DNA from: Pseudomonadota bacterium
Lineage (GTDB): Bacteria; Pseudomonadota; Gammaproteobacteria; JAKAQQ01
Reading direction: 5' to 3'
Assembly (NCBI GenBank): GCA_027365475.1
Contig: DAHXNI010000039.1
Span: 1 to 64,000 of the forward strand
Length of the DNA stretch: 64,000 nt
Below, in pieces: positions 6,322 through 23,960 of the stretch (its first letter is position 1; each line of letters begins with the position of its first letter). A model generated the notes under the pieces. It saw only the letters and a program-made list of their open reading frames with translations. It was not told the origin of the DNA and did not search any database. Made by a program: the position numbers and the translations under genes.

Positions 6322-7914
6322 ATGTCCAGATGCCCGGTAGCCGCAAGCATTTTTGCCAGCGCTCTGGCCGGCGCGCTCGTGTTCGGCCCTCTCGCCGCTC
6401 CCTGGGCCTTGCTCTTTATCCCTTGGATCCTGCTCCCGCCAAGCGGCCGGAAACCTATCGGCCAGGGCCGCTTCGGTTGGCTCGCCGCCGGGGCCACGCA
6501 CGGGTGGCTGATCCTCGCAGCCGCGTTTTGGGGCGGGAGTATCACTACTGCCTATGCGCTCTCCGGATATACCGGCTGGCCGGTCTGGATCGTCCTGTCC
6601 GCCTTCGCACCCCTGGCCCTCTTCATCACCGCCCCCTGGCTCATCCTCGCCTCGATCGGCCCGCGCTCGTCCCTAGCCGATGCGGCCCGACTACTAGTCA
6701 TGTTCGCGTTGGTCACCTTCCCCCCTCTCGGCATCTTCGCCATCCCGACCCCGCTGGACGCCGTCCTGGGCATTCCCGGGATTCTGCTCGCCCCGCTCCC
6801 ACCGGGGTGGCCCAAACTGCTCGCGGCCGCGATCGCCGCTTCCCTGGCCATGATCGCACCCCGCATCCTGATCCACCGCTACCTGTCCCCCGATCCGCGA
6901 TCGGATGCCCGCACCCGGCGGCCCTCTCGCGTGCGGTTCGCCGCGTTTGCTGGATACTCGATCATGTTCATGCTGCCGGTTCTGCTCGCGTCGCTGTTCG
7001 CGCTTGTGTCGCATTCTCCTCACCGGCCCCGGCCATCTGCCGCATTCTCCGTCACGCGCCTTGCCCGGGGGCGCCCCGCCCTGGGGCGTCCTACACATGG
7101 GCGGCTCCTCATCCTCGCGCTCCAAACCCGACAGTCCCTGCGGGCTGCCCGCGCCCTCGCGCGTTCCGGCGCGCTCGGCGCACTCATCCAGTCCGAAACC
7201 CTCTCTCATCACCTCCAGCGACTCTCAAGGCTCCACCCCGGACTCATCACGTCCCACACCTTTATCCTGACGCCCGAGTTCTCTGCCGGCAATCTCTGCC
7301 ACTTCCCCACCGCCGCGCAGCCGCTGGGACCGTTCCTCGATCGTTACCCGCATACCTGGATCCTGATTGGTGCGGAAATCCCCGTGCACCTCTCCGCAGG
7401 ATCCACCTCCGGATGTACCGATGGCGCCGCCCTGTTCCGGGGGCCCCACCTCCTCGAGCTCGTGTCGGCCAGCCAGCCGGCCCCCATCTCCGAATGGAAT
7501 CCACTCCAATCTGGGCCCGACTACCCCGCCCATTGGTTCAGGTCCGCCCTGGTTCGGCTGTCACGCGGCGGATCGCTGGCCGTGCTCGTGTGTTACGAGG
7601 GGACGGTCCCCTGGTTCCCGCTCCTCGCCGCATCCGCTGCACCCCGCGTGCTGCTTTCCATGGATTCCGATCTCTGGCCACACGGTCGGCAGGCGGCGGC
7701 CTTCGAAGACCGCATCGTTCGCGCCTGGGGACGATTCTATGGTGTCTCCGTGGCCATCGCGGACGCATTACCGCTCGAAACGCGCCGTCGGGAACGCGCA
7801 GTGAGAGCGGGGCGTGAGACTCAGATTTTCGGTCCCGGGGCAGGCGTCCATAACCCCCGCTTGCGCGGGGAATACTTCACGACATTGCCGCAGTCCTGCC
7901 CGCATAGCCTTTAA
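6322..7914 (+). CDS. Nitrilase-superfamily membrane protein, Lnt/TraB-like
   Basis: The N-terminal half has about six or seven hydrophobic segments and the C-terminal half is a nitrilase-type domain, as in apolipoprotein N-acyltransferase (Lnt) and the plasmid protein TraB of Agrobacterium. The catalytic Glu is visible in ILTPEFSAG and the Cys in VLVCYEG. The third catalytic residue, Lys, is not at the expected place before SEWNPL, so classic acyltransferase activity is doubtful. The start is ATG at 6322 because the promoter at 6262-6289 places transcript starts near 6296. The 3' end is odd: the last 22 codons are formed by the first CRISPR repeat and spacer, and the stop codon lies in the second repeat (see findings). 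Confidence 0.75.
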   Translation: MSRCPVAASIFASALAGALVFGPLAAPWALLFIPWILLPPSGRKPIGQGRFGWLAAGATHGWLILAAAFWGGSITTAYALSGYTGWPVWIVLSAFAPLALFITAPWLILASIGPRSSLADAARLLVMFALVTFPPLGIFAIPTPLDAVLGIPGILLAPLPPGWPKLLAAAIAASLAMIAPRILIHRYLSPDPRSDARTRRPSRVRFAAFAGYSIMFMLPVLLASLFALVSHSPHRPRPSAAFSVTRLARGRPALGRPTHGRLLILALQTRQSLRAARALARSGALGALIQSETLSHHLQRLSRLHPGLITSHTFILTPEFSAGNLCHFPTAAQPLGPFLDRYPHTWILIGAEIPVHLSAGSTSGCTDGAALFRGPHLLELVSASQPAPISEWNPLQSGPDYPAHWFRSALVRLSRGGSLAVLVCYEGTVPWFPLLAASAAPRVLLSMDSDLWPHGRQAAAFEDRIVRAWGRFYGVSVAIADALPLETRRRERAVRAGRETQIFGPGAGVHNPRLRGEYFTTLPQSCPHSL

Positions 7915-8729
7915 CCCCCGCTTGCGCGGGGAATACCGGTGGCCATGGTCAGAGCTACAAGGACAAGGACTTTAACCCCCGCTGGCGCGGGGAATACATT
8001 CCCCACACACTCCAGCTGCGCGCGTGTGCCCTTTAACCCCCGCTTGCGCGGGGAATACGCCAATGCCGGCCAACGCGCACGCGCACGCGGCCTTTAACCC
8101 CCGCTTGCGCGGGGAATACTGCCCTCGCCCGTGCGAGGATCTCCTGGCCCTCCTTTAACCCCCGCTTGCGCGGGGAATACTACTGGGTTGAACAAGAGTC
8201 GAAAGTGAAACTACTTTAACCCCCGCTTGCGCGGGGAATACATGGCTTTCCACCGTTCGTGCTCGGCCTCGCCCCTTTAACCCCCGCTTGCGCGGGGAAT
8301 ACTTATCACGCGGGGGGAAGTTCAAAGGATTATCTCTTTAACCCCCGCTTGCGCGGGGAATACCGCCGGCGAGCTTCACAACTACATTTCGGCAGCCTTT
8401 AACCCCCGCTTGCGCGGGGAATACTGAGCTGCCTGAGACACGATTGACCTATGCCCACTTTAACCCCCGCTTGCGCGGGGAATACTGGGATCGAGGTCGT
8501 CGAAGATCTCCATGACCCCTTTAACCCCCGCTTGCGCGGGGAATACCCTATCGCGCGTATTCCTGCTATTGACGGGCCCCTTTAACCCCCGCTTGCGCGG
8601 GGAATACAAAATAAAGTTGAGTGCAAGCCAAGGTTCGGCCCTTTAACCCCCGCTTGCGCGGGGAATACTGGCCGCCGAACGGGAGACCGCCCGGGCTTCC
8701 CCTTTAACCCCCGCTTGCGCGGGGAATAC
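7848..8729 (-). CRISPR. CRISPR array, 15 repeats of 28 bp, 14 spacers of 33 bp
   Basis: Repeat starts are at 7848, 7909, 7970, 8031, 8092, 8153, 8214, 8275, 8336, 8397, 8458, 8519, 8580, 8641 and 8702, a strict 61-bp period. The leftward strand starts with GTATTCCCCGCG and ends with GGGGTTAAAG, the layout of type I-E and IV-A repeats, so the array is probably transcribed leftward with the cas genes. Each repeat can fold a 6-bp stem (CCCCGC with GCGGGG). Two repeats vary: the one at 7970 has one changed loop base, and the one at 7848 differs at its outer three bases, which marks the left end as the old, trailer end. The newest spacers would be at the cas2 side. Ten of 14 spacers carry a C next to the repeat on the plus strand. 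Confidence 0.98.
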
Positions 8730-8745
8730 CCTTCGCTGAAAGTCG

Positions 8746-9066
8746 CTAGCTATCAGACTGTTGGCCGGATCCATTTTTTGTGCGGGCTGATTTCCTGGTC
8801 GAGATGAGCGGTAACCCGAAGTTGTCAACGATTTGATATCGATGCTGTCCAATTGTTTTGAAGTCGATTCCAAGCTCCGTCTTTGCCTGGTATACCGCCA
8901 GGGCGCTTTTTGCTCCGGAGATCTCCACCGCTTGCCAGATTTCCAGGAAACTGCGTCGTGACAGCGCGGCCACGAACACGCCGGGGCGGACCTCAAGCAT
9001 GCGCCTACTCAACTGCCCGTACAGTTTTGGCGGGGCGCACTCAAGGTCAATCACTACCATCGGCAC
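8746..9066 (-). CDS. cas2: Cas2, type I-E kind
   Basis: Structural partner of Cas1 in spacer integration. The N-terminal MVVIDLECAPPKLYGQLSRR and the following LEVRPGVFVAALSRR match the type I-E (CT1978) Cas2 subfamily, as does GIDFKTIGQHRYQIVDNFGLPL. At 106 aa it is about ten residues longer than usual, with a Lys/Ser-rich tail. The start is GTG at 9066 (AGGAT 8 bp upstream) or ATG at 9060. It overlaps the end of cas1 by 14-20 bp. Its stop codon is only 16 bp from the last CRISPR repeat, so any leader must lie within its coding sequence. Confidence 0.93.
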   Translation of the reverse strand: MPMVVIDLECAPPKLYGQLSRRMLEVRPGVFVAALSRRSFLEIWQAVEISGAKSALAVYQAKTELGIDFKTIGQHRYQIVDNFGLPLISTRKSARTKNGSGQQSDS

Positions 9067-9865
9067 GAGTCACATCCTGTACGATTCCAACAAGCGTTTC
9101 CGCCATCTTCTCCGCTACGAACAAATCACGGCAGCCGTGTCGTGTGCGCTTCTCAATCCCCACCGATGACTCCGCCGCCAGCCTGAACGCCAGTGGGACC
9201 ACCGTTTTGAATTTCACGGTATCGGCCACGTCAAACACAAAACTCCGCCGGTCTCCGTCATGGATAAACCCAATTGCCGGGCTGTACCCGAGTGCCAGGA
9301 TTACGGCTTCCGTCAGACCATACAATGCGGCCGTTGCCACGTTGATCGCCTGGTTGGGCGGGTCCATGGATTCGCCATCGCGCAGGATGTGCCGCACACC
9401 GTTCTGGTCCGCGAGCTGTTTATAGATGGCGCGAACGCGCACGCCTTCCAGCCCGCGCAGCTGTTCAATGCTGCGTGCAGCCGGCGCCTCCTCGCCGAAC
9501 ATGTGTCCCCATATCCTGCGTGCGACCTTGAGACGTATGGCGGGATCCAGGCGCAACGCGGCCTGAAACAGTAGGGCACGCCCATCCCCATGAGGTTGAC
9601 CGGCGGCATAAAGCCGTGTCCCGGCTTCGCCGGCCCAAAGGATGAGCGCGCCCTCCAATCCGCACAACGCGACAGCCGCATGAGTGATGGAGCATCCCGG
9701 GCCAAGGGCGAGAACCGCAGTCCGGCCGACCGGAATCTGCGTGGTCCCATCTGCGCCAACCGCGACCAGCGCATGCCCTTCCCGCTCGATGCGAGCGTGC
9801 TCCAGGAACACGAAACTGACGCGCTCGGACACGGGCACTGTATGTGACAGCGCGTCGCGCACCAT
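9047..9865 (-). CDS. cas1: Cas1 integrase, type I-E kind
   Basis: Metal-dependent integrase that inserts new spacers. It follows type I-E Cas1 closely along its length, for example PVGRTAVLALGPG, WAGEAGTRLYAAGQP, SIEQLRGLEGVRVRA and CRDLF. The catalytic residues are present: Glu186 in ALYGLTEA, His202 in GFIHDG, Asp212 and Asp215 in FVFDVAD. Length 272 aa, close to the 305 of E. coli Cas1 but shorter at the C-terminus. It lies 23 bp after csf3 in the same direction, so effector and adaptation genes form one operon. Most described type IV loci lack cas1 and cas2. Confidence 0.96.
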   Translation of the reverse strand: MVRDALSHTVPVSERVSFVFLEHARIEREGHALVAVGADGTTQIPVGRTAVLALGPGCSITHAAVALCGLEGALILWAGEAGTRLYAAGQPHGDGRALLFQAALRLDPAIRLKVARRIWGHMFGEEAPAARSIEQLRGLEGVRVRAIYKQLADQNGVRHILRDGESMDPPNQAINVATAALYGLTEAVILALGYSPAIGFIHDGDRRSFVFDVADTVKFKTVVPLAFRLAAESSVGIEKRTRHGCRDLFVAEKMAETLVGIVQDVTRADGSD

Positions 9866-9888
9866 GTTGTTAAAGAACTTCCGAACCG

Positions 9889-10632
9889 TTACCCGAACAG
9901 TGAAAGATCGATCCAGCCATCGCGCATGTTTTCCGCTGCCCAGTACGGATAGCGTACCGCAATCCGCATCTGCGTGGCCTCTTCATACGGCCAGGGCGAC
10001 GCCCGCCATTGCCAGCGTTCCCGCGCCCGTTCGTCACGCTCGATCGCAAACGAGGTGATCCGGCCGAGCGCCGCGCGGGCATGCGATCCCAGGTGGGTGA
10101 TCCACCCGATGGCCGGATCCAGGAGATTTTCCAGCTCTTCGCGATCCCCGATACACCAGGCCGACAGCTGCGCGGGGAGCCGCGTCGGAAGGTAGTTGTA
10201 GACCTGCTTCGTGTATCCGCGCGAGGGGTCGATTCCGGCATCGTTGCCCGGCTTCATCCCCACCCGCACTTGCACTCCGCCCCGCTTCTCCGTGATGTAG
10301 GCCTTGTCCGGAAGATCGACGAATCCATCCGCTACAGCTCCGGCCACTGCGTATGGATCGGGACTCCTCGAGTATGCGCGCATGCCGCTCCCCATCCATC
10401 CCCGGTCCGCGATCAGCGCGCTGGCCTTCCAGCACCATTCGCCCTGGCGCTCTTCCCGCTCGAACGGCAGCTCTGCGCGGTCCGACAGCGCGCGCTGGCT
10501 CTCGCCCGGCCTTGCGCGGCCATCGTGTTGCATGGCCCGTACTTGCGCGTGTGCTGTGAGCCCGTCCAGATGGAGCGGGTTCGGCGACTCCGCCATTTCA
10601 TCTACGCGCCAGGTGATTCGTAGTGGTTCCAT
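9889..10632 (-). CDS. csf3: Csf3, Cas5-like subunit of type IV-A effector
   Basis: Cas5-group RAMP protein expected to cap the 5' handle of the crRNA in the Csf complex. It starts with ATG at 10632, one base after the csf2 stop, and is 247 aa, a usual size for Csf3. Features seen are the N-terminal beta strand LRITWRVDE, a Gly-rich middle part (RGGVQVRVGMKPGNDAG) and a C-terminal segment ending WIDLSLFG. The assignment rests on position between csf2 and cas1, size and RAMP-like pattern more than on single catalytic residues. Cas5 in this type is not a nuclease. Confidence 0.82.
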   Translation of the reverse strand: MEPLRITWRVDEMAESPNPLHLDGLTAHAQVRAMQHDGRARPGESQRALSDRAELPFEREERQGEWCWKASALIADRGWMGSGMRAYSRSPDPYAVAGAVADGFVDLPDKAYITEKRGGVQVRVGMKPGNDAGIDPSRGYTKQVYNYLPTRLPAQLSAWCIGDREELENLLDPAIGWITHLGSHARAALGRITSFAIERDERARERWQWRASPWPYEEATQMRIAVRYPYWAAENMRDGWIDLSLFG

Positions 10633-10633
10633 G

Positions 10634-11764
10634 TCACCCCCCCTTGGCCGGACGGCCTCTTTTCCGGGGCTTGGACTCCACTTCCACTTCCACTTCCGCT
10701 GCGGCCGTATCCTTCGGCTTTTGGGGGGGCTTTACAAAATAGGTTAGGGTGTCCTCATAGGTGCACCGTGCCAGACCTTCCTGCGCAGCCGCCACATAGG
10801 ACGAAACGTCGGGATGCAGCTCCGCGTTTTCGGTGGCCGCGTCTTCGCTGAAGATGTGCAACGCCGCTCCGCCGCCATTCAGGAGGGTCACGCCCTTCGC
10901 CTGAAACCGCCCCCACCCGGCGCTGACTTTGCCGCCGAGAGCCTGTTCACGCACCAGTTCGCGCAGCGCCAGGATTGCGAGCCCCACATGCGCGTCCGTT
11001 GCGTCCGGCGCAAAATCGATGCGCAGATACATTGGCGTCCCCGGCTGGATCGCTTCGATGTCGTAAATCGATGCGACCTTATTTTTGAGTGTTTGCTGCT
11101 CCAGCTGATGCTGGGTGACGGTCACGGCCGGATCGTCGACACATTCCAGAATCTCGCGCGGCCGGCTCATGCGCACGGCATCGTCGACGCAATAGGAACG
11201 GTAGGTCTTGGTCAGGTGCCATCCATCCGTGGCTCTCTCCTCGCGTGTCTTCTGCCCGTCTTCCGCCGTGACGGGCTTCGACCAGCGGGGCAGGAACCCC
11301 TCTCCATTGGTCTCGGCATAGCTCGCGGGCACCAGTCCTGCGGCCACCGTCTCCGCCAGCACGGGCACCAGATCATTGACCCGGATCCTGGCCCGCAGCA
11401 TGCGACAGCCGCCGCCCAAGAGCCCCATATAGACGTGTGTGCGCGCGCGCTGGATTTCGTCGACCGTGGGATTGCTCCCGGCGATGCCGCCGATGCCGGT
11501 GCCAGAGTTGAGCCCGACATAGAAGCCGACAGACATCTTGCGCGTCGGCGTGACGATCTGTTCGATCACCATCCGCGCGGCTTTCCGCCGCAGCCGGCCT
11601 TTGAGATCGTTGCCCGGGAAGTACGGGATCTCCTTCTCCCCGTTCGGAGTCAGGATCGAATGGGTTACGGTCCCGGTGCGGATGTTGTGTCCCTCGGGTG
11701 TCTTTTCCTGCCCGGACGAGCAGTGCAGTGGGGAGGTGAGTTGGAAGATGCCTTCGATTCGCAT
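10634..11764 (-). CDS. csf2: Csf2, Cas7-like backbone subunit of type IV-A effector
   Basis: Forms the helical backbone along the crRNA. RAMP features: an N-terminal strand MRIEGIFQLTSPLHCSSG, the segment FPGNDLKGRLRRKAARM (a Cas7-type motif), and a Gly-rich C-terminal part GGKVSAGWGRFQAKGV. The start is ATG at 11764 behind AAGGAG. It is 376 aa; the last 30 or so residues form a tail rich in Glu and Lys/Arg that ends KPRKRGRPAKGG (365-376), an AT-hook-like RGRP motif that suggests added DNA contact. It follows csf1 by 25 bp and precedes csf3. Confidence 0.9.
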   Translation of the reverse strand: MRIEGIFQLTSPLHCSSGQEKTPEGHNIRTGTVTHSILTPNGEKEIPYFPGNDLKGRLRRKAARMVIEQIVTPTRKMSVGFYVGLNSGTGIGGIAGSNPTVDEIQRARTHVYMGLLGGGCRMLRARIRVNDLVPVLAETVAAGLVPASYAETNGEGFLPRWSKPVTAEDGQKTREERATDGWHLTKTYRSYCVDDAVRMSRPREILECVDDPAVTVTQHQLEQQTLKNKVASIYDIEAIQPGTPMYLRIDFAPDATDAHVGLAILALRELVREQALGGKVSAGWGRFQAKGVTLLNGGGAALHIFSEDAATENAELHPDVSSYVAAAQEGLARCTYEDTLTYFVKPPQKPKDTAAAEVEVEVESKPRKRGRPAKGG

Positions 11765-11789
11765 GAGATGTCTCCTTGGATGAAATGGG

Positions 11790-12596
11790 TCAGATGGATG
11801 ATCGGTGTCCCGGCACGGTCAGCGCCGGGGATGGACGGGGATCTTCAGCATAGAGAAGGGCGTACAGTGCCCACCGCTCGCCCCCGGTGAGCGCGCGCAC
11901 CGTCGCCACATCGGCCGCGACCCGGGGGTCTTGGGCGGCCAGCGCGTACAGCGGCAGCTTCAGCCGACCCTGGTCGGTCGCGTCGAGATCCGGCGACAAC
12001 GAAGCGAACGGGCCCCGGGAAGGCGCACCGCGCTTGCCCTCGGCGCGTTCGAACTCATTCAGTGCGCTGGTGAGCCGCTTGGCGGCGTCCCTGCCGTCGG
12101 CGAGCCGCTGGCGGCGGATCGTCATGACCACTTCGTTGTACCGCACCTGATAGATCTCCGTGCTCCGGTTTACCGGTGTGCGCCAGACCAGGTGCTGCAT
12201 TCTCTTGTCCCCCTGCACGAAGAGCCAGTCCCCCGCAGGCGGGTTGAGGAACCACCAAGCCAGGTGGTCCTTGCTCGCCGCCTGGAAGACGCCTTTTTCA
12301 CAGATGATGGTTTTCTGGAAGTTCTGCATGAAGAGCCGCCAGGATTGCCCCATCATGACCCCGGCGCACCAGATGCACGTGGTCCGGCTACCGGGATGGG
12401 CCATCGAAGCCCAGTCGGTGAAGGATTTGTCCCGCTCAAACGGCATCACCGGCTCGCCTTTGCCGTAGTGCACGCCGCATAGGGCGCAACGCCCGTCTGC
12501 GGATGCCGGATATCCGACCGGCGGCTTCTCCCGGACCGCCCGCAATGCGATCTCGGACGGGCTCGGTTCGCGATTGGCTGCCATCATCGCGCTCAT
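11790..12596 (-). CDS. csf1: Csf1, large-subunit-like protein of type IV-A effector
   Basis: Signature protein of type IV CRISPR systems. It has the expected zinc-finger pairs: Cys37 and Cys40 (CALC) and Cys74 and Cys77 (CIWC). The start is ATG at 12596, overlapping the csf5 stop as ATGA, so translation is coupled; the frame is open further upstream to 12719 but that part lies within csf5. Length 268 aa, normal for Csf1. The C-terminal half is helical (around QRLADGRDAAKRLTSALNEF). Order csf5-csf1-csf2-csf3 is the type IV-A order. Confidence 0.92.
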   Translation of the reverse strand: MSAMMAANREPSPSEIALRAVREKPPVGYPASADGRCALCGVHYGKGEPVMPFERDKSFTDWASMAHPGSRTTCIWCAGVMMGQSWRLFMQNFQKTIICEKGVFQAASKDHLAWWFLNPPAGDWLFVQGDKRMQHLVWRTPVNRSTEIYQVRYNEVVMTIRRQRLADGRDAAKRLTSALNEFERAEGKRGAPSRGPFASLSPDLDATDQGRLKLPLYALAAQDPRVAADVATVRALTGGERWALYALLYAEDPRPSPALTVPGHRSSI

Positions 12597-13321
12597 CCGA
12601 CAAACGCGCGACGCGCGTCCTCCCCACGAATTACCGGCCTGCCGGGATCGGCGAACATGCGCCCATATCCCCGCGAGGTCAGATTGCCCACCCACCAGTA
12701 TCCTTTGAAGTGTGCGCACGCGAGCACTCTCGCGTCGAGCAGGGTCACGTATTCCTCCGTCAGCCCTCCTGTCGTGGACAGGCGCAACCCGCGCGGGTTG
12801 ATCGTCTCCATTTCAAGGCTCAAGAGGGTCTTGACCCGGCCAGGATCTTCCGGCAGTGCATAAATTCCGAGATGCCGGTCGAAGTCGATGAGTCCCCGGA
12901 GCAGTCGCTCTTCGGCCAGTTTCGCGATCTCCGCCGACCGCGCCTGCGGACCCCGCCGCTTCAGGACCATTTCGCGTACCCAATACCCGCGCGGCTGCCC
13001 GTCGAAAACGAGCCCGGTCTGGACCCGCTCGACGCGGATCTCTGCCGGCTCCTGCCATTCTTGTGTTACCGCGCTCACGATCGCTCCCATGTGCTCGTCG
13101 AGTAGCCGCTCATATCCGGGGTCGAAAGACACCCCCAGCCAGCCCACCCCCCCACAAAATCGCACGTGTGGCAACTCGGGCTTCGGTTTGCCGGAAGCAT
13201 CCCGGTGAAAGAGCTCGGGCGCGGCGCCCATGCGGGCCGCCACCAACTCCCGAAATGCCGAAATGAACATCCGCTTGCCCGCCGGCTGCCGGATCCTCAG
13301 CAATGTGACTGTCTTCTGCAC
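12593..13321 (-). CDS. csf5: Csf5, Cas6-like crRNA endonuclease
   Basis: Processes the CRISPR transcript at the base of the repeat hairpin. It is a RAMP protein with the C-terminal Gly-rich loop GNLTSRGYGRMF (about 212-223) typical of Cas6. The start is GTG at 13321 behind AAGGTGG; the frame extends to 13375 but that stretch contains the -10 and part of the spacer of its promoter. 242 aa. First gene of the leftward csf-cas operon. Catalytic residues cannot be named with confidence from the sequence alone; His40 (LFHRD) is a candidate. Confidence 0.85.
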   Translation of the reverse strand: MQKTVTLLRIRQPAGKRMFISAFRELVAARMGAAPELFHRDASGKPKPELPHVRFCGGVGWLGVSFDPGYERLLDEHMGAIVSAVTQEWQEPAEIRVERVQTGLVFDGQPRGYWVREMVLKRRGPQARSAEIAKLAEERLLRGLIDFDRHLGIYALPEDPGRVKTLLSLEMETINPRGLRLSTTGGLTEEYVTLLDARVLACAHFKGYWWVGNLTSRGYGRMFADPGRPVIRGEDARRAFVG

Positions 13322-13332
13322 GGCGCACCACC

Positions 13333-13360
13333 TTGCTTGATTAAGATTAAGTGCTATCAT
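13333..13360 (+). promoter_or_regulatory. csf4p: Promoter of csf4 (dinG)
   Basis: TTGCTT (13333-13338), 16-bp spacer, TATCAT (13355-13360). Transcripts would begin near 13367, right at the first usable ATG. Confidence 0.6.
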
Positions 13361-13383
13361 ATCACGGAATGTCACTGAAGCAA
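13356..13383 (-). promoter_or_regulatory. csf5p: Promoter of the csf-cas operon
   Basis: Leftward TTGCTT (13383-13378), 16-bp spacer, TATGAT (13361-13356). Its -10 overlaps the -10 of the opposing csf4 promoter. Confidence 0.6.
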
Positions 13384-15897
13384 GTAATTATGCAAATCAC
13401 CACCTACGTCCCCGAAAACCTCCTGTCCACCTTGCTTTCTGGCCGCTGGGCCGCTACGCGCGGAGATCCGCAGGCCCTCCGGCGGGCTGTGCAGGAAATG
13501 ACCCAGGCCGCTCTCGCCAGCGGATGTGTGCCCGTTCCCTGCCCCCCACCTGACGACAGCGTGGAAAAGATCCGAGTCACTTTTTACCTCCCGCTCTCCC
13601 CGGAGTCCGCGGTCAACGCCTTCGCCACCGACTGGGGCTGCTCCCGCGCGGAGATCGTGCGTCGCCTGCTCGCCGCCCTCGCCGCCAGCGGCGAATATCT
13701 CCCGCCCGCCCCCTCCGAATCGCATCCGGTCATCCGGCTCTGCCGCGCCCTGGGACAGGAACCCCGCCGCGAACAGGCCCAGTTCTACGATGACATCATG
13801 GATGCCCTGCGGGACGGCGCGATCGGCCTGGTCGAAGCCGGTACCGGCATCGGCAAGACGCGCGCCGAACTGCTCGCGGCCGCGCACCACGCCCGCGCGA
13901 CCGGGGCGAAAGTTTGCCTGGCCGTACCCACCCTCGCGCTCATGCGCCAAGCCCTCACTGAATATGAAGGGCATCTCACGTGGGATCCCAGCCTGCCCCC
14001 GATCCGCCCCATCCGCGGGCGGTGTGAATTCTTCTCGGACGCGGCCGTGCTGGACGTCCTGGCCTATCCGCCACAACCCTTCGCCGACCGACCGGCGCTC
14101 GAGGCGTGGCTGTCACAGCCCCACTCCTGGCTCGCCGACGATCTGGCGATCGTCGCACCCGATTTCCCGATCGATGAGGTCCGTCTCGACCCCTTTGTCA
14201 GTCACGAGGATCGGGGGTACCTCGCCTACGCCAAACAATTCGGCGATCCCAAAACCCGCCGCACCGAAACGCCCGTCGAAATCGTCCTCTGCACCCACGC
14301 GATGCTCGCGCAAGACTCGCGCCAGAAAATGATCAAGACGGGCAATGACGCCGCATTCAGACAGATCCAGGCGGAAATGGGGCAGGCGATGGGAGCGGTG
14401 CGGGACGCCGACGACGACGCCAAGCCGGGCGCACGCGCGGAACTGAAAAGGATCAAGGAGGAACGCGCCAAAACCATGAGCGACCTCGCGGCCAAAGACG
14501 GTTTCGTTGGACTGCTGCCCGCTTACGTGGCGCTCATCGTCGACGAAGCGCATCTCCTTGAATCGACTTTTTCGTCAGCCCTCGGCGACTATGTCTCCCT
14601 GCGCAAAACGATCCATAACCTGCGCACCTTGCGCGAAGCCGGCGTGCACGGCATCAGCACAACATTTCTCAGAAAGGCAGATGCGCTGCTCAAGACACTG
14701 TCCGAGCATTCCTCCGACCAGACCTTCGAAGCGCTGGACCCCGGAGGTCGGGGTGACTCCCTGTCCGCGTGCGTGCGCGACCTCTGCGCACACCTGGCCT
14801 CCCTGCGGTGCGTTCCGAAACGGGCGACACCGAAATCCGGCAAGAACAAGGATATCCACCAGCGGCGCTGGGATGAACACCGGCGTGCACTGGCCGTCAT
14901 GCGGTGCGCGATCCACCCCGCCAAGGGATCCTCCGGAACCGCCGGCTATCTCGTTCGCTCTCCCACCCGCTCCTATCCGTCCATCTATCTCGGCCCACGG
15001 TCCGTCGAGACGGTTCTCTCGATGCTCTGGAACTCTGTCAAGTCCGGTGCCGTGGTCTCGGCCACCCTCTACACCGAAAGCGCCGCCGGCGGATACTCGT
15101 CCTCCTATCAGCGGAGCCTGCTCGGGATCGGTCTTTCCCGGGCGCGCGAATATCCCCCGCTCCATGTCGCCTGGACGCGTACGCCGGTCACCGTCCACAC
15201 GCACGCCGCCGGTTCCGGCTCCTCGTGGCTGCGCCGCCCCCCCGATGCGGACGATCCGGAGGCCAACCAGGCGTGGCTCCGGGACGTCGCCACCTGCCTC
15301 GAATCGATCTACGCTTCCGCCGCCGGCGGCGTGCTCGTACTGCTCACCAGCTACGACATTGCCGCCGGGCTCGCAGAGCAGCTGACCCCCGGGCTGGGCC
15401 ACGCGCTGATCGCGGCCCGCACCGGATACTCCCTGCATCGCCAGCAAGAGGCCTGCTACCGCTCCATGGACGCGGGTCACCGACCGCTCTGGCTCGCTCT
15501 CGGCGGTGCCTGGACCGGTATCGACGTGGGCGGACACAGCGATCAGTACCGGGAACTGCATTCCCAAACGACCCTGCCGGCCGCCGACGACAACCTCTTC
15601 ACCGATCTCGTCATCCCCGCGCTGCCCTACGGCGTCAACCAGTCCCTCACGTTCCGATGGCGGGTACACGCACGCCCCGCCTTTCCCTGGCGTACGCTCG
15701 ACGCCGCCTTTTTCTACCGCCAGGGGCTCGGGCGACTCATCCGGCGTCCCGGCATCCCGGAGAACCGGCATATCTGGGTGCTCGATGCCCGGCTCGGCGA
15801 CCCGACCGCCACCACCGAGCGGGCGCTTTTCCTGAATCCACTGCTGGCCTATCCCATGCTTTCGCCGCTCGTGCCCCCGGCACCCAGTGACCGTTGA
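13369..15897 (+). CDS. csf4: Csf4, DinG-family helicase of type IV-A CRISPR
   Basis: XPD/DinG-family superfamily 2 helicase that is needed for interference in type IV-A systems and marks that subtype. Walker A EAGTGIGKT (156-164) and the DEAH box VDEAH (391-395) are present; the C-terminal helicase part contains YRQGLGRLIRRPG, a motif VI-like segment. No four-cysteine iron-sulfur cluster is apparent. An N-terminal extension includes IRVTFYLPLSPES and CSRAEIVRRLLAAL (about 68-110), the pattern of a ribbon-helix-helix DNA-binding fold. At 842 aa it is long for the family. The start is ATG at 13369, which may be leaderless; ATG at 13390 is the alternative. It diverges from the rest of the csf genes. 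Confidence 0.93.
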   Translation: MSLKQVIMQITTYVPENLLSTLLSGRWAATRGDPQALRRAVQEMTQAALASGCVPVPCPPPDDSVEKIRVTFYLPLSPESAVNAFATDWGCSRAEIVRRLLAALAASGEYLPPAPSESHPVIRLCRALGQEPRREQAQFYDDIMDALRDGAIGLVEAGTGIGKTRAELLAAAHHARATGAKVCLAVPTLALMRQALTEYEGHLTWDPSLPPIRPIRGRCEFFSDAAVLDVLAYPPQPFADRPALEAWLSQPHSWLADDLAIVAPDFPIDEVRLDPFVSHEDRGYLAYAKQFGDPKTRRTETPVEIVLCTHAMLAQDSRQKMIKTGNDAAFRQIQAEMGQAMGAVRDADDDAKPGARAELKRIKEERAKTMSDLAAKDGFVGLLPAYVALIVDEAHLLESTFSSALGDYVSLRKTIHNLRTLREAGVHGISTTFLRKADALLKTLSEHSSDQTFEALDPGGRGDSLSACVRDLCAHLASLRCVPKRATPKSGKNKDIHQRRWDEHRRALAVMRCAIHPAKGSSGTAGYLVRSPTRSYPSIYLGPRSVETVLSMLWNSVKSGAVVSATLYTESAAGGYSSSYQRSLLGIGLSRAREYPPLHVAWTRTPVTVHTHAAGSGSSWLRRPPDADDPEANQAWLRDVATCLESIYASAAGGVLVLLTSYDIAAGLAEQLTPGLGHALIAARTGYSLHRQQEACYRSMDAGHRPLWLALGGAWTGIDVGGHSDQYRELHSQTTLPAADDNLFTDLVIPALPYGVNQSLTFRWRVHARPAFPWRTLDAAFFYRQGLGRLIRRPGIPENRHIWVLDARLGDPTATTERALFLNPLLAYPMLSPLVPPAPSDR

Positions 15898-15971
15898 CCC
15901 CGACATGACCGAGATTCAAGCTCCCCCGCCACCCAATGCGGGCCGCCCTTCGTTGACGGGGGGATGATTTG

Positions 15972-17012
15972 ATGGGCGACCGGACTGCCATCGAATGGAC
16001 TGCCACCCGGCATCCCGACGGGACGAGCACCCCCGGCGCAACCTGGAATCCGATTCGCGGGTGCTCGCGCGTCTCCAAAGGCTGCGAACATTGCTACGCG
16101 GAACGTGTTGCTGCCCGCGCCAGCGGATTTAGCCAGCCCTATCACGGCCTGCTGCACGCCAGCGGGGCCTGGAATGGAGTGATCCGGTCGGTCGCGTCTG
16201 CGCTGGAACTGCCGTTGCACTGGCGGCGTCCGCGCCGCGTCTTCGTGAACAGCATGAGCGATCTGTTCCACGAGGGGGTCGCCGATGAATGGCTCGACCG
16301 GATCTTTGCCGTGATGGCACTCGCTCCCCAACACACCTTCCAGGTTCTGACCAAGCGGCCGGAACGGATGAGACGCTATTTCGACCTCTCGCCCGATAAC
16401 CGGGAGGAAGCGATCGGCGCATCCATGCGTACCCTCACCCAGGGGAAGCATCCCGGGCTCATCGATCTGCCCCTGCCCCATGTCTGGCTTGGCACCAGCG
16501 TGGAAAACCAGGAGACCGCCGCCGCCCGCATCCCGGAACTGCTGGACACCCCCGCGCGGGTGAGATTCCTTTCCTGTGAGCCCCTGCTTGGCAGGATCGA
16601 TCTCTCGCTGGTCGACCCCCACCGGGGTGACCCCACCGGGGGCGCTCTCCTCCGAAACGGCATCCACTGGGTGATCGTCGGCGGCGAGTCCGGCCCCCGG
16701 GCACGCCCGATGGACCCCGACTGGGCGCGTACGCTTCGCGACCAGTGCACGGCCGCCGCGATCCCCTTCTTTTTCAAGCAATGGGGCGAGTTTCTGCCCG
16801 CAGCCGTATACGACGACGCCGACTATGCCGGTGGGCGCGCGTTCGAGGATCCGAATGGCGGTACCGCAGCTGCCGAGCCGGGCGATCATTACTTCTACCA
16901 CTGGCTTTCGCCCAGCCTGGTCGCGGCCCGGGTCGGCAAGAAACAGGCCGGAAGACTGCTCGACGGGCGCAGCTGGGATCAATATCCAGAAGATGGCCAG
17001 CAAAAGTATTGA
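15972..17012 (+). CDS. DUF5131 (phage Gp37/Gp68-like) protein
   Basis: Member of the DUF5131 family found in phages and mobile elements. The signature is clear: TAIEWTATRHP at the N-terminus, TWNPIRGCSRVSKGCEHCYAE with three cysteines (C-x7-C-x2-C, as in radical-SAM-like iron-sulfur proteins), VFVNSMSDLFHE, HTFQVLTKRPERM, WLGTSVENQ, FLSCEPLLG and VIVGGESGPRARPM, and FFFKQWGE. 346 aa, the usual size. The start is ATG at 15972 with GGGGGA upstream. Its biochemical role is not established. It follows csf4 by about 75 bp; its stop codon lies inside the -35 of the next promoter, so no space separates the two transcription units. Confidence 0.92.
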   Translation: MGDRTAIEWTATRHPDGTSTPGATWNPIRGCSRVSKGCEHCYAERVAARASGFSQPYHGLLHASGAWNGVIRSVASALELPLHWRRPRRVFVNSMSDLFHEGVADEWLDRIFAVMALAPQHTFQVLTKRPERMRRYFDLSPDNREEAIGASMRTLTQGKHPGLIDLPLPHVWLGTSVENQETAAARIPELLDTPARVRFLSCEPLLGRIDLSLVDPHRGDPTGGALLRNGIHWVIVGGESGPRARPMDPDWARTLRDQCTAAAIPFFFKQWGEFLPAAVYDDADYAGGRAFEDPNGGTAAAEPGDHYFYHWLSPSLVAARVGKKQAGRLLDGRSWDQYPEDGQQKY

Positions 17013-17768: not shown

Positions 17769-17796
17769 TTGATATTGCCAGAACCTGCGGTATCAT
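17769..17796 (+). promoter_or_regulatory. Promoter of nrdJ, shared TATTGA family
   Basis: TTGATA (17769-17774), 16-bp spacer, TATCAT (17791-17796), preceded by ACAAAAAGTA. The -10 covers the in-frame ATG at 17795, so that ATG cannot be the translation start. Confidence 0.68.
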
Positions 17797-17824
17797 GGAT
17801 GTCTCACAAACGAGATTCACTGAT

Positions 17825-19972
17825 ATGCCTCCGACCCTGATCCTCCTCCGACCCCGAACCCCGGAAACCGACGGGGCTCCGCTCCCGCTCCAGCCCGCAT
17901 CGCTCGATATCTGGGATCGCAAATACCGCCTGCGCGACCGGAATGGCAACGCCATCGATGCCGACTTGGATGGAACGCTCGAGCGGGTCGCCACTGCGCT
18001 GGCCCAGCCGGAAGATCCGCAGATCCGCGACCGGGTGCGCGACGAGTTTCTGTGGGCGCTCCGGAACGGGGCCGTGCCTGCCGGGCGCATCCTCTCCAAT
18101 GTCGGCGCGGGCTCCCACAAGCCCAACACCTCCACCATCAACTGCACGGTCTCGGCACCCATTGCGGATTCCATGGACGCCATCCTCGCGCGCGCCCATG
18201 AGGCCGGGCTCACCCTCAAGGCCGGGTGCGGGATCGGTTACTGCTTCTCCACCATCCGCCCGCGCGGCGCATTCGTCTCGGGTGCGGGATCTTATACCTC
18301 GGGCCCCCTCTCCTTCATGGATATCTACGACCGGGTTTGCGCGACCGTCTCCTCCGCCGGCGGCCGCCGCGGTGCCCAGATGGCCACCTTCGATGTCGGG
18401 CACCCAGACATTGCCGATTTCATCCGCGCCAAACGCGAGGACGGGCGACTGCGTCACTTCAACCTCTCGGTGCTCGTCACCCGGGCCTTTCTCGAGGCCG
18501 TTGAGCAGGATGCCCCATGGCCCCTCGCGTTCCCACTCGACCCGCGCGAGGCCCGCGACAATCCCGGCCATCTCCAGGATCCCAGCCAGGTGCTCTGGCG
18601 CGACTGGCCGATCCGCGAAGGATACGTCACCGACCCGGATGGACGGGTTGCGTGCAAGATCTACCGGACGCTCCCGGCGCGCCATCTCTGGGACGAGATC
18701 ATGCGGTCCACCTACGACTTTGCCGAACCCGGGTTCATTCTGGTCGACGAAATCAATGAAATGAACAATAACTGGTGGTGCGAAGAGATCAGCGCCACCA
18801 ACCCGTGCGGCGAACAACCGCTCCCGCCCAGCGGCTCCTGTCTCCTCGGATCCGTGAATCTCACCCGGTTCGTGCGTGAACCGTTCACCGAACGTGCATC
18901 GTTCGACTGGGATCTCTACCGCAGGGTGGTCCAGGTGTTCACCCGCATGCTCGACAACGTGGTCGAAATCAACGGATTGCCGCTCGATGACCAGCGACGG
19001 GAAATCCAGCGCAAACGCCGGCACGGGATGGGCTTTTTCGGCCTGGGCTCGGCACTCGCCCTTCTCGGCCTGCGTTATGGCTCCCCGGCGGCCACCCAGT
19101 TCGCCGAAACCGTCTCCCGTACGCTCGCCCTCACCGGCTGGCGAGAGGCCCTCGCACTGGCGCGCGAGAAGGGCCCCGCCCCCATCATGGACGAGACGTT
19201 CACGGTCACCGCGGCCATGCTGCGCAAACGCCCCGAAATGGCACACGACGGCTGGAAGGTCGGAGACCCGATCCGGGGACGCCAGCTGCACGCCCGCTAC
19301 AGCCGCTATATGCAACGCCTGGCCTCGCTGGACCCCGGCCTGATCGAATCCCTCACCGAAACCGGTGCCCGCTTCACCCACCACTCCTCGATCGCGCCCA
19401 CCGGTACCCTGGCGCTGTCCGTCGGGAACAATGCCTCGAATGGCATCGAACCGTCCTTCGATCACCACTACTACCGCAACGTCATCCGCCCGGACCGGAA
19501 GACCAAGGAACGGATGGACGTGTTTTCCTACGAGCTCCTGGCCTATCGCGCCCTGGTCGACCCGGACGCCGACCCTGCCGTCTCCCTGCCGCCCGCGTTC
19601 GTTTCCGCAGACACTGTTTCCCCGCGCGAACACATCGCCATGCAGGCCGCCGTCCAGACCTGGGTCGATTCGTCCATCTCCAAAACCATCAACGTCCCCA
19701 CCGACATGCCGTTCGGCGCATTCAAGGATATCTACCGGCTGGCCTCCGAGAGCGGACTCAAAGGGTGCACCACATTCCGGTTCAACCCCACAGCCTTCCA
19801 GGGCGTCCTGGTCCGGGAACAGGATCTCCGCAATACCCGGTACCGCTTCGTCCTGAACGACGGAACCGCAGTCGAGGCCAGGGGCGATGAGGAGATCGAA
19901 TATGACGGCGAAACGCATACCGCCGCCAATCTTTTCGACGCTCTCAAAGAAGGACAGTACGGCAAATGGTGA
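17825..19972 (+). CDS. nrdJ: Adenosylcobalamin-dependent (class II) ribonucleotide reductase
   Basis: Makes deoxyribonucleotides with vitamin B12 as radical source, without need for oxygen. Active-site residues are visible: Cys107 in STINCTVSAP, Cys328 and Glu330 in NPCGEQPLPPSGSC with Cys339 as the second redox cysteine. Typical stretches AGCGIGYCFSTIRPRG, GRRGAQMATFDVGHPDI and APTGTLALSVGNNASNG(I)EP are present. 715 aa; the C-terminal cysteine pair used for re-reduction in many class II enzymes is missing, so reduction must work otherwise. The start is ATG at 17825 because of the promoter position. It stands alone between two promoters. Plasmid carriage would boost precursor supply for replication. 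Confidence 0.94.
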   Translation: MPPTLILLRPRTPETDGAPLPLQPASLDIWDRKYRLRDRNGNAIDADLDGTLERVATALAQPEDPQIRDRVRDEFLWALRNGAVPAGRILSNVGAGSHKPNTSTINCTVSAPIADSMDAILARAHEAGLTLKAGCGIGYCFSTIRPRGAFVSGAGSYTSGPLSFMDIYDRVCATVSSAGGRRGAQMATFDVGHPDIADFIRAKREDGRLRHFNLSVLVTRAFLEAVEQDAPWPLAFPLDPREARDNPGHLQDPSQVLWRDWPIREGYVTDPDGRVACKIYRTLPARHLWDEIMRSTYDFAEPGFILVDEINEMNNNWWCEEISATNPCGEQPLPPSGSCLLGSVNLTRFVREPFTERASFDWDLYRRVVQVFTRMLDNVVEINGLPLDDQRREIQRKRRHGMGFFGLGSALALLGLRYGSPAATQFAETVSRTLALTGWREALALAREKGPAPIMDETFTVTAAMLRKRPEMAHDGWKVGDPIRGRQLHARYSRYMQRLASLDPGLIESLTETGARFTHHSSIAPTGTLALSVGNNASNGIEPSFDHHYYRNVIRPDRKTKERMDVFSYELLAYRALVDPDADPAVSLPPAFVSADTVSPREHIAMQAAVQTWVDSSISKTINVPTDMPFGAFKDIYRLASESGLKGCTTFRFNPTAFQGVLVREQDLRNTRYRFVLNDGTAVEARGDEEIEYDGETHTAANLFDALKEGQYGKW

Positions 19973-21638: not shown

Positions 21639-21770
21639 CAGGTTAACTGAACGTCTAGGCTTCAACGCCGGCTTGACCCGCTTGCCGAGGATGCAGTGGT
21701 CGTGCCCTAGCCAAAGCCAGGCTACAGGGACCGTTAACGCTTTCGGTATACCTCAGAATCGCAAAAAGTA

Positions 21771-21798
21771 TTGACTTGGCACGGCCCGCCGGTACAAT
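21771..21798 (+). promoter_or_regulatory. Promoter of the rpoA-like gene, shared TATTGA family
   Basis: TTGACT (21771-21776), 16-bp spacer, TACAAT (21793-21798), preceded by GCAAAAAGTA. If the encoded protein acts on this promoter family, it would regulate itself. Confidence 0.68.
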
Positions 21799-21837: not shown

Positions 21838-22815
21838 ATGGAAACACAACCCGCAGCTGCCGAAGCTGCCAACGAACCCCTGCCGCCCACGATCATGACG
21901 CCGGGCGTGTTCGTCGACCCGCTCGGTACCAGCGAATCCGATCGCGTGATCGTATATATCGGCCAGCGGGACAAGATCGGACTCATCGTCGATCTGGACC
22001 GGGACCAGGTAGCACCAGACCCGGCACCGCCGGTACCGGCACCGACAGCCCCGTCGCGGTCACCGAACGCTGCGGCCGGGATACTCGATCGGGTCCGGAT
22101 TTCGGCCTCGTTCAGCCCGGTTTGCGATCCCGACGACACCGGGAATGCGTCGCCTGATGACGATCTCGAGCTCGATTGCTTCGTGTTCGAAGCCGACGTC
22201 AACGGGTCGACCCCGACACGGGAGGCCCTTCTCCTGGCGGCCACCAGCCTCATTGGCCAGCTGAACCATTTCGCGTACTCGATCCTCGATCAGGCGCAAT
22301 TCGGCCCGCCACCCGCTCACCCGTTCGATCTCGCATTCCTTTCGCAACCTATCGACGCGCTCGGCCTCTCCACCCGGTCCCGGAATGCCCTCCGAGCGGA
22401 CGGCGTGCGCTCCGTGAGGGATCTCGTCCGGCTGTCTGAATGGCATCTCCTCCGGGCTCGCGGCATCGGCAAGAAGGGCGTGGCCGATATCAAGGATGCA
22501 CTGGCCCGCCACTCCCTCTCGCTCGGGATGAACTTCGAACCCGAACCACCGACCGCCGTCCAGTTCGACGCCCTGCTCTTCAAGCGCATCGACACGCTCG
22601 GCCTCTCCACCCGGTCCCGGAATGTCCTCCGGGACGAGGGCGTGCGCTTCGTGGGGGATCTCGTCCGGCTGTCCGTATTGGATCTGCTCCGGATACCTAC
22701 CCTCGGCGGAAAATCACTGGCCGATATCAAGGATGCACTGGCCCGCCACTCCCTCTCGCTCGGGATGAACATCGAAAATTGGCCGCCCGAAGTCCTCCCT
22801 CCTTCTGACCCATGA
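21838..22815 (+). CDS. RNA polymerase alpha-subunit derivative with two tandem alpha-CTDs
   Basis: A shortened RpoA. Residues 1-80 are an unrelated Pro-rich start. Residues 85-150 match the last part of the alpha N-terminal domain (DRVRISASFSPV, then FVFEADVNGSTPTREALLLA and LIGQL), which in RpoA forms part of the dimer interface. Two complete alpha C-terminal domains follow (about 168-231 and 247-317). Both keep the key DNA contacts: Arg180 and Arg259 equal R265 of E. coli, Asn183 and Asn262 equal N268, and the second copy keeps GKS. The end LSLGMNIENWPPE copies the RpoA C-terminus. The regions that bind beta and beta-prime are missing. The two CTD units share long identical DNA (237-bp spacing), so the duplication is fairly recent. 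Start ATG 21838 behind CGGAG. Likely a DNA-binding transcription factor or alpha decoy; no function is proven. Confidence 0.9.
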   Translation: METQPAAAEAANEPLPPTIMTPGVFVDPLGTSESDRVIVYIGQRDKIGLIVDLDRDQVAPDPAPPVPAPTAPSRSPNAAAGILDRVRISASFSPVCDPDDTGNASPDDDLELDCFVFEADVNGSTPTREALLLAATSLIGQLNHFAYSILDQAQFGPPPAHPFDLAFLSQPIDALGLSTRSRNALRADGVRSVRDLVRLSEWHLLRARGIGKKGVADIKDALARHSLSLGMNFEPEPPTAVQFDALLFKRIDTLGLSTRSRNVLRDEGVRFVGDLVRLSVLDLLRIPTLGGKSLADIKDALARHSLSLGMNIENWPPEVLPPSDP

Positions 22816-23717
22816 TCTACATCTACCCCGGCCCCGGCCCGCGCCCCGCCATCACCCTGTTCCAAAAGGCCAGCCGCTCGATCCGCCTCAACACCTACGA
22901 AATCACCGACCGCCGCGTCGAACGCGCGCTCGCCGACGCCCGCGCCAAGGGGGTCCGCGTCGAGATCCTGCTCAGCCGACGCGTCTATCGCTCCCCGGAC
23001 ATGGTCCGGCACGAGCTCGCCTGGTGCCGCCGCACACAGATTGCCTGCCGGCTCTCGCCCACGCGTTTCCGCTTCGATCACGCCAAATACTTCCTGGTGG
23101 ACGGTACAATCGCCTGGATCGGCTCGCTAAACATGACTTTCGATGGGTTCAGCCGGAATCGCGAAGCCGCCCTGGTCACCTCCGCCCCGTCCCTCGTCCG
23201 CGCCACACGCGCCGTCTTCCGCGCCGACTGGCACGACCAACCCGCCGGCCACGCCCCGCGACGCGCCCTCGTGCTCTCCCCACACTCGGGCTTCGCGTTC
23301 CGCTCCCTGCTCACCCTGCCCGGCCCGATCGCGATCGAGACCGAAGAGTTTTACCCGCCCCGCCGCCTGCAACACGCGATGGAACGCCTGGGACGCCAGC
23401 TCCGCCTGATCCTCCCCGCACGCGCGGTTTACGGCCGGGGCGAACGCAACCGACTCTGCCTGTTGGCCACCGCCGGCGTCAGGATCCGTCTTCTCCGCTC
23501 TCCCTACCCCCACATCAAGCTGATCCTGACCCCGCGTGCCACCTTCCTCGGATCCCAAAACTTCTCGCGAACCTCACTCGAATCCAACCGCGAAGCCGGC
23601 GTGCTGCTCGGCCCCGGCACCTCCTCCTCACATCTCCTGTACCGAACCTTCGAACGCGACTGGCACGCCGCCCGCCGCCTGTCCTGCTCCCCATCCGTCA
23701 CTCCTGGCGCCCCATAG
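22812..23717 (+). CDS. Phospholipase D-family (HKD) protein
   Basis: PLD-superfamily protein with two HKD-type motifs. The first is complete, DHAKYFLVDG with the downstream IGSLNMTFDGFSRNRE; the second reads PHIKLILTPR, where the Asp is replaced by Pro, followed by LGSQNFSRTSLESNRE. Family members include nucleases and phospholipases; small plasmid-borne ones are often nucleases (Nuc/BfiL-like). 301 aa, no signal peptide. It starts at ATG 22812, overlapping the rpoA-like stop as ATGA, so the two are co-translated. The functional link to the alpha-like protein is unclear. Confidence 0.87.
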   Translation: MIYIYPGPGPRPAITLFQKASRSIRLNTYEITDRRVERALADARAKGVRVEILLSRRVYRSPDMVRHELAWCRRTQIACRLSPTRFRFDHAKYFLVDGTIAWIGSLNMTFDGFSRNREAALVTSAPSLVRATRAVFRADWHDQPAGHAPRRALVLSPHSGFAFRSLLTLPGPIAIETEEFYPPRRLQHAMERLGRQLRLILPARAVYGRGERNRLCLLATAGVRIRLLRSPYPHIKLILTPRATFLGSQNFSRTSLESNREAGVLLGPGTSSSHLLYRTFERDWHAARRLSCSPSVTPGAP

Positions 23718-23931
23718 GAGACTGAACTTCATGTGTTCCCAGCCTTTGAAAAAAAGACTTGTACATTGAACAGCAACCACCCCTGCCAATTGAAGCGTTT
23801 TCGGATTGTTTTTTATCACATTGAAAAGAGCGCGGAAGATGTTGCGGGCAATCGCCGCCGGCAGGCCGCTTGGGAGCTGGGATACTGGGAATGCCTCTTT
23901 TTGACATTCAGTATCGCCAAGAAGCCCGTGT

Positions 23932-23960
23932 GTTTCCGCACACGGGCTTTCTTCGTTTCC
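23932..23960 (+). terminator. Rho-independent terminator after the PLD gene
   Basis: AAGCCCGTGTG (23932-23942), 6-base loop, CACACGGGCTT (23949-23959), then TCTTCGTTT. A perfect 11-bp stem with a short T-rich tail; it would end the rpoA-like/PLD transcript. The stretch 23718-23931 before it contains no convincing gene. Confidence 0.7.

Follow-up and report, generated by a model that had tools for sequence, protein, structure and literature searches.

A plasmid gene with two α C-terminal domains

Does a plasmid gene related to rpoA still encode a subunit of RNA polymerase (RNAP), or has its product become something else? This question is raised by an open reading frame (ORF) of 325 codons in the stretch of DNA analyzed here (the window), which comprises the first 64 kb of a 72.9-kb contig (C30) from a genome of 2.48 Mb (105 contigs, 94% complete). 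A preliminary description held that the gene was plasmid borne, and this is backed by genes for ParA, a SopB-type ParB, Rep3, and an actin-like protein on the same contig, together with coupling-protein, VirB11, VirB2, VirB4, VirB8, VirB9, and VirB10-type genes. Given these genes, the contig is very probably a conjugative plasmid; no terminal overlap was found between the ends of the 72.9-kb contig. Comparison with known plasmids gave no nucleotide match over 20.1 to 27.9 kb, and a single 47-bp piece of the replication region matched. The host chromosome carries an ordinary rpoA gene of 338 codons (contig C4), the neighbors of which we take from their translations to be rpsD and rplQ.

Other loci of note lie upstream in the window. 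Positions 7847 to 15897 hold a type IV-A1 CRISPR-Cas locus (csf3, csf2, csf1, and cas6 [−]; dinG/csf4 [+]) accompanied by cas1, a CT1978-type cas2, and an array in which 15 repeats recur every 61 bp; a locus of this type thus has adaptation genes of its own, a combination that may merit a look. It is followed by a gene for a DUF5131 protein (15969 to 17012; E value, 2e−95), which also matches the PADLOC candidate-defense models PDC-M30B/M41B, and by a plasmid-borne ribonucleotide reductase large-subunit gene (17795 to 19972; barrel plus all-alpha domains).

The ORF was confirmed, with its ATG at 21838 and a GGAG ribosome site 7 nt 5′ of it. The product, P0001, is organized as follows (RpoA residues in E. 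coli numbering).

21838 to 22815, plus strand: gene for the tandem αCTD protein P0001, 325 amino acids (ORF and Pfam)
21919 to 22287, plus strand: degraded remnant of the α N-terminal domain (αNTD), residues 28 to 150, equivalent to RpoA ∼118 to 235 (BLAST matches from residue 28 and alignment)
22327 to 22536, plus strand: first α C-terminal domain (αCTD1), residues 164 to 233, with R265, N268, G296, and K298 kept and N294G, S299G, E302D, D259A, and E261G changed (Pfam, alignment, and model)
22564 to 22788, plus strand: second domain (αCTD2), residues 243 to 317, with R265, N268, G296, K298, and S299 kept and N294T, E302D, D259T, and E261G changed, followed by EVLPPSDP (Pfam, alignment, and model)

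Pfam identified RNA_pol_A_CTD (PF03118) in two stretches of P0001 (score, 109.5 bits; cut-off, 23.8; E value, 6.5e−32), and the αCTD also matched HHH_5, in line with a helix-hairpin-helix-type fold. A phmmer search of PDB returned RpoA chains only. Chance likeness to RpoA is ruled out by the E values, and the relation between the two proteins, on which the preliminary description depended, was recovered by Pfam, by phmmer, and by the tree presented below. Both the score above the gathering cut-off and the αCTD fold place P0001 in the PF03118 family. As a whole protein it scored below the cut-offs of both NCBIfam RpoA equivalogs (148.7 versus 302 and 111.7 versus 227.8), and it does not have the αNTD dimerization and β/β′ contact regions of an RpoA. 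BLAST alignments with RpoA of the host family begin at P0001 residue 28 (∼RpoA 118); RpoA 1 to ∼115, which contains the first dimerization helix and β contacts, is missing. The architecture described earlier, a piece of αNTD joined to two complete αCTDs without the β/β′ assembly region, therefore holds, with the qualification that the αNTD part is degraded. The two αCTDs are separated by a linker of about a dozen residues. The C-terminal end had been described as identical to that of RpoA; P0001 ends in IENWPPEVLPPSDP and the host RpoA in IENWPPESLRREAIQTEPL.

Structure prediction against RpoA had been proposed as a check, and the models of both CTDs superpose on αCTD-DNA structures. In the fragment alignment used for folding, P0001 was the sole sequence over CTD1, and this domain was therefore folded separately; the resulting AlphaFold model (mean pLDDT, 84.8) fits the E. 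coli αCTD of the CAP-DNA complex (1lb2_B) with an rmsd of 0.7 Å over 68 columns. In the whole-protein model αCTD2 (pLDDT, ∼80) superposes on the same αCTD-DNA structures. A full-length P0001/RpoA alignment, in which the duplication caused the αNTD to be placed wrongly, was left out of folding. The αNTD region was modeled poorly (pLDDT, <50), and no conclusion was drawn from it; a helix predicted at residues 128 to 150 corresponds to the region of αNTD helix H3.

Descent from the host rpoA and selection on the parts

In a tree built from 149 columns, both parts of P0001 fall inside the RpoA proteins of the host genus and family (89/87 for the family side), in agreement with common descent with RpoA. 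Since the stem leading to P0001 is long (1.55 changes per column), its precise placement within the host-family RpoA is uncertain. The two CTDs are sisters (99/93), and the duplication is therefore later than the capture. Among 369 genomes of the class, the best match to P0001 was the host RpoA. In the tree, RpoAs of this class include the E. coli type, and the host, which belongs to a small order within the class, is therefore probably a gammaproteobacterium.

Identity to the host RpoA is 60% for CTD2, 54% (40/74) for CTD1, and 40% over the aligned part of the αNTD piece. The corresponding pN/pS values are 0.226/0.488 (∼0.46), 0.269/0.411 (∼0.65), and 0.405/0.434 (∼0.93), the last being near neutral. 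In neutral simulations at equal nucleotide divergence, the observed amino acid identity to the host was reached in 0 of 400 runs for CTD2, 1 of 400 for CTD1, and 12 of 400 for the αNTD piece, although the simulation is crude (base frequencies are fixed and local alignment favors identity) and its divergence includes the host's own branch. The order of conservation, CTD2 before CTD1 before αNTD, is clear and points to the CTDs as what is kept.

These figures bear on whether P0001 could be a decaying fragment of a captured rpoA, with no present function and a frame open by chance. The near-neutral αNTD piece and long stem branch would suit such a fragment, as would the lack of relatives and the loss of several invariant residues. 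Decay is nevertheless quite unlikely: the frame is open across 325 codons, and the simulated chances of meeting no stop codon in the three aligned segments (0.33, 0.26, and 0.27) multiply by hand to ∼0.02; both CTDs are conserved beyond the neutral expectation, and the promoter, the ribosome site, and the duplication argue for use.

The duplication was examined at the DNA level.

22351 to 22539, plus strand: repeat unit, copy 1 (mosaic identity with copy 2, 237 nt apart)
22588 to 22776, plus strand: repeat unit, copy 2 (mosaic identity with copy 1)

The two CTD-coding units are identical at 168 of 219 nt, with dS of 0.33 and dN of 0.24 between the copies. The report of a duplicated 237-bp unit with long identical DNA is correct for two exact stretches, one of 30 nt and one of 53 nt, and not throughout, as identity is mosaic and falls to 41% in a 27-nt middle stretch. 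This diverged patch encodes the DNA-contacting hairpin, RGIGKKG in CTD1 and PTLGGKS in CTD2. Duplication followed by patchy homogenization or uneven divergence would explain the pattern. Misassembly as the source of the repeat was ruled out, given the mosaic differences between the copies.

DNA, σ, and activator surfaces

In the closed complex at rrnB P1, two αCTDs lie side by side, with R265 and N294 inserted in the minor groove and K291 and K298 on phosphates (PMC7822876); R265 and N268 are critical in DNA binding (PMC11434276). Of the contact set R265/N268/N294/G296/K298/S299/E302, CTD2 keeps five of seven and CTD1 four. The minor-groove Arg and Asn had been described as kept in both CTDs, with their loss in an alignment named as grounds for rejection: R265 and N268 are indeed present in both, as are G296 and K298, but N294 is gone from both. 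Position 291 is Arg in each CTD, the same as in the host RpoA. Counted from the alignment, CTD2 keeps 14 and CTD1 keeps 13 of the 19 CTD positions that are invariant in RpoA, and the retained contact residues are not clearly better conserved than the CTD overall. Both CTDs have gained R267, R276, R283, and R309 and carry Arg for K271, and their net charges are +3 and +2 versus −2 in the host. At 5 µM, αCTD on its own binds promoter DNA (PMC2801614). The DNA affinity of P0001 could be low, because neither CTD retains N294 or E302 and CTD1 has also lost S299.

The σ-facing surface fared differently. R603 of σ70 interacts with αCTD residues D259 and E261 (PMC5511352), and since these are replaced by A or T and by G in P0001, action through σ is not supported. 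Judged by its residues, P0001 retains most of the DNA side and has lost the σ side. Residues 283 to 288 and 317 of the activator face are also altered, which leaves the activator binding claimed earlier doubtful.

The same surfaces would be needed if P0001 served as a decoy for activators, for phage proteins acting on α by cleavage or modification, or for other factors that attack or bind the host αCTD, and thereby protected or rewired host transcription. Phages do target this domain, as Rac of φKMV-like phages brings about a cut in the α linker by which the CTD is lost (PMC7552054), and the plasmid carries the type IV-A1 CRISPR-Cas locus. With the activator and σ faces changed (283 to 288, 317, 259, and 261), however, the bait surfaces of a decoy would be lost, the linker differs, and phage factors of this kind are not known for this host, making a decoy very unlikely.

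Redirection of the host polymerase by P0001 as a subunit, as originally suggested, is unlikely because RpoA 1 to ∼115 is missing, what remains of the αNTD evolves almost neutrally, and the σ contact is lost. An alternative subunit that paired with the host α and steered RNAP to plasmid promoters could make use of the retained αNTD helix H3 region and two αCTDs, and heterodimeric α occurs in Francisella (PMC3294249). The αNTD remnant is, however, poorly modeled besides being near neutral, and the plasmid-borne RpoAs that were found are full length. Such pairing is held to be highly improbable.

Transcription unit shared with a PLD-family gene

P0001 is followed by a gene for a PLD-family protein, P0002, and the two are bracketed by putative transcription signals.

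21760 to 21770: A-tract CGCAAAAAGTA directly upstream of the promoter, like a proximal UP subsite (read from the sequence)
21771 to 21798, plus strand: putative σ70-like promoter TTGACT-16-TACAAT, 10 of 12 consensus matches
22812 to 23717, plus strand: gene for P0002, 301 amino acids with two PLDc_2 stretches, its start overlapping the P0001 stop (ATGA)
23921 to 23950, plus strand: intrinsic-terminator-like stem of 13 pairs after the two-gene unit (consensus match only)

The promoter-like sequence ends 39 bases 5′ of the P0001 start codon; two σ70-like sites were seen in 4.1 kb against 0.8 expected, and the adjoining A-tract is short. P0001 and P0002 probably form an operon. Among curated families, P0002 is closest to DISARM DrmC, at a score well under the cut-off (55.6 versus 133), and it also shows likeness to DpdK. 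A second PLD-family homologue of the host (contig C105, 24844 to 25659) is 44% identical to P0002 and lies behind a 200-amino-acid ORF.

This arrangement raises the prospect that P0001 serves the PLD-family nuclease encoded next to it, as its DNA-binding subunit or its antidote, in a module for plasmid maintenance or for defense against plasmids or phages, a reading drawn from operon structure only. The ATGA overlap and the single promoter-terminator unit around both genes are consistent with it, as are the resemblance of P0002 to DrmC and DpdK, the helix-hairpin-helix-type fold of the αCTD, and the αCTD-like domain of the defense protein PglW (PMC12839542), to which P0001 has weak matches. 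The pairing is not conserved, however, as none of the PLD homologues inspected, whether from other genomes of the class or from Sulfobacillus plasmids, has an αCTD gene next to it; moreover, homologues of both genes occur on chromosomes of the host family, and the two may have been captured side by side. A nuclease partner is therefore considered unlikely.

Proposed function of P0001

The favored reading, to which we give somewhat less than an even chance, is that P0001 works on its own, binding the minor groove with its two heads, and competes with the αCTDs of RNAP or represses, its own operon included. Under this proposal the plasmid captured rpoA from its own host family, the captured copy lost the part used for dimerizing and for binding β and β′, the remaining αNTD drifted, and the αCTD was duplicated. 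The product would no longer be a polymerase subunit and would be free-standing. Its two linked αCTDs would grip A/T-rich minor grooves side by side, much as the αCTD pair of a polymerase does, though with no polymerase attached and no σ contact, and should bind adjacent sites more tightly than one domain could. At A-tract DNA upstream of promoters, P0001 would compete with the αCTDs of RNAP or repress locally, and the nearest candidate target is its own promoter, driving P0001 and the PLD-family gene.

The ancestry, the architecture, the loss of the assembly and σ surfaces, the core of the DNA surface, the conservation of the CTDs, and the operon layout are all read from sequence. It is from these that we infer DNA binding, competition or repression, and autoregulation. 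Of the activities put forward initially, competition with the host α, or binding of DNA at two sites, is plausible for P0001. The fuller proposal, that the plasmid turned the host α into a free, single-chain, two-headed αCTD regulator which rivals polymerase for UP-element-like DNA and shares an operon with a PLD nuclease, is offered tentatively and is rather doubtful as a whole. Mechanisms beyond the five readings considered here are given very little weight indeed.

If true, the fuller proposal would mean that a mobile element had domesticated a core subunit of polymerase. Core RNAP subunits are rarely reused outside the enzyme, and here a plasmid appears to have retained and doubled only the DNA-gripping domain of the host α. 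Should P0001 bind DNA as predicted, it would be a natural protein that separates αCTD DNA binding from polymerase recruitment and a ready two-headed competitor for UP elements, giving the plasmid a simple route to influence transcription of its own genes or of the host's. As only one example is known, over-reading should be avoided.

Searches for relatives

No described protein with this architecture was found in the literature searched, in keeping with the earlier statement that none was known. A search for the same architecture in other mobile elements had also been advised; no second RpoA-derived tandem αCTD was found in the order, in ∼700 sampled proteobacterial genomes, in 72,556 plasmids, in 50,697 phage records, or in IMG/VR, and the other eight genomes of the order contained no second αCTD gene. 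With a tandem-CTD query, P0001 was the sole match in 399 genomes of the phylum (E value, ≤1e−25), and a second, partly overlapping draw of 349 genomes yielded two ordinary RpoAs only (1e−21), in searches that would miss a strongly diverged tandem. Scans of GTDB genomes gave three ordinary RpoAs only with the whole of P0001 and nothing with its first 239 amino acids. P0001 had no relatives in IMG/VR, and IMG/VR scans with the αCTD-tailed proteins described below, the host RpoA, and P0002 found nothing. The phage records contained bacterial-type RpoA only, and tblastn of plasmids with P0001 returned RpoAs. Odd plasmid matches (Yoonia, Methylobacterium, Streptomyces, and Sphingomonas) were rejected as relatives, those examined being full-length RpoA. 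P0001 is known from one example, with no relatives found in these searches.

A survey of PF03118 in 110 genomes recovered extra full-length RpoAs, single-αCTD proteins of 157 to 204 amino acids (some of them in mobile elements), PglW-sized giants, and a 335-amino-acid αCTD-like protein.

Comparison with known systems

The closest relative of P0001, and by the tree its likely ancestor, is the host RpoA (338 amino acids). Compared with it, P0001 is without RpoA 1 to ∼115, has a doubled αCTD, has lost N294 and the acidic residues that contact σ, and has its gene on a plasmid, away from the ribosomal-protein operon.

Francisella α2 and the plasmid RpoAs of Streptomyces linear plasmids and Yoonia pBS5-3-2 are, like P0001, products of extra RpoA-derived genes, and those of Streptomyces and Yoonia likewise sit on mobile replicons. 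Unlike P0001, all of them keep the assembly half of the αNTD and one αCTD. Plasmid pBS5-3-2 of Yoonia sp. BS5-3 (16.5 kb, with a relaxase) encodes a full-length RpoA-like protein of 389 amino acids with a C-terminal extension (locus L049, 2419 to 3588), a gene absent from the PLSDB gene table. Many Streptomyces plasmids carry RpoA copies; the one examined (L048, 2548 to 3555) is full length, annotated at 335 amino acids, and strongly diverged (end branch of 2.4 in the tree).

An αCTD outside RNAP is also found in PRK07758 (NCBIfam) and in mobile-element proteins of 157 to 182 amino acids (L058, L059, and L062, from genomes G450, G463, and G456). These have one αCTD behind an unrelated N terminus and, unlike P0001, are not recognizably from a host rpoA; P0001 itself scored 43.2 bits against the PRK07758 family cut-off of 115. 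The three αCTD-tailed proteins have DUF3987/Toprim primase, ParB-like, recombinase, or AAA genes as neighbors and come from a proteobacterial family in which some genomes have several rpoA copies, and the L059 contig also carries an extra full-length RpoA.

A 335-amino-acid protein from a 319-kb contig (L063; G115, contig C2) probably has two αCTD-like helix-hairpin-helix modules, as P0001 does. They match NF003519 at residues 61 to 137 and, weakly, NF003516 at 155 to 222, with one above the Pfam cut-off. In contrast to P0001 it has no αNTD remnant, and at ∼23% identity its origin is likely independent. Its gene (L063, 2665 to 3672) is near what we take from the translations to be a Phd/VapC-type toxin-antitoxin-like pair.

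PglW of type 2 BREX shares with P0001 an αCTD-like domain outside RNAP, which in PglW follows a kinase (PMC12839542). It differs in being a kinase of ∼1,400 amino acids with winged-helix modules and no RpoA remnant; P0001 scored 26.3 bits against the PglW cut-off of 990 and had no kinase match in Pfam. Reuse of the αCTD outside RNAP is thus already known, and what is new in P0001, as its sequence is placed by the tree, is a tandem derived from the host family's own rpoA.
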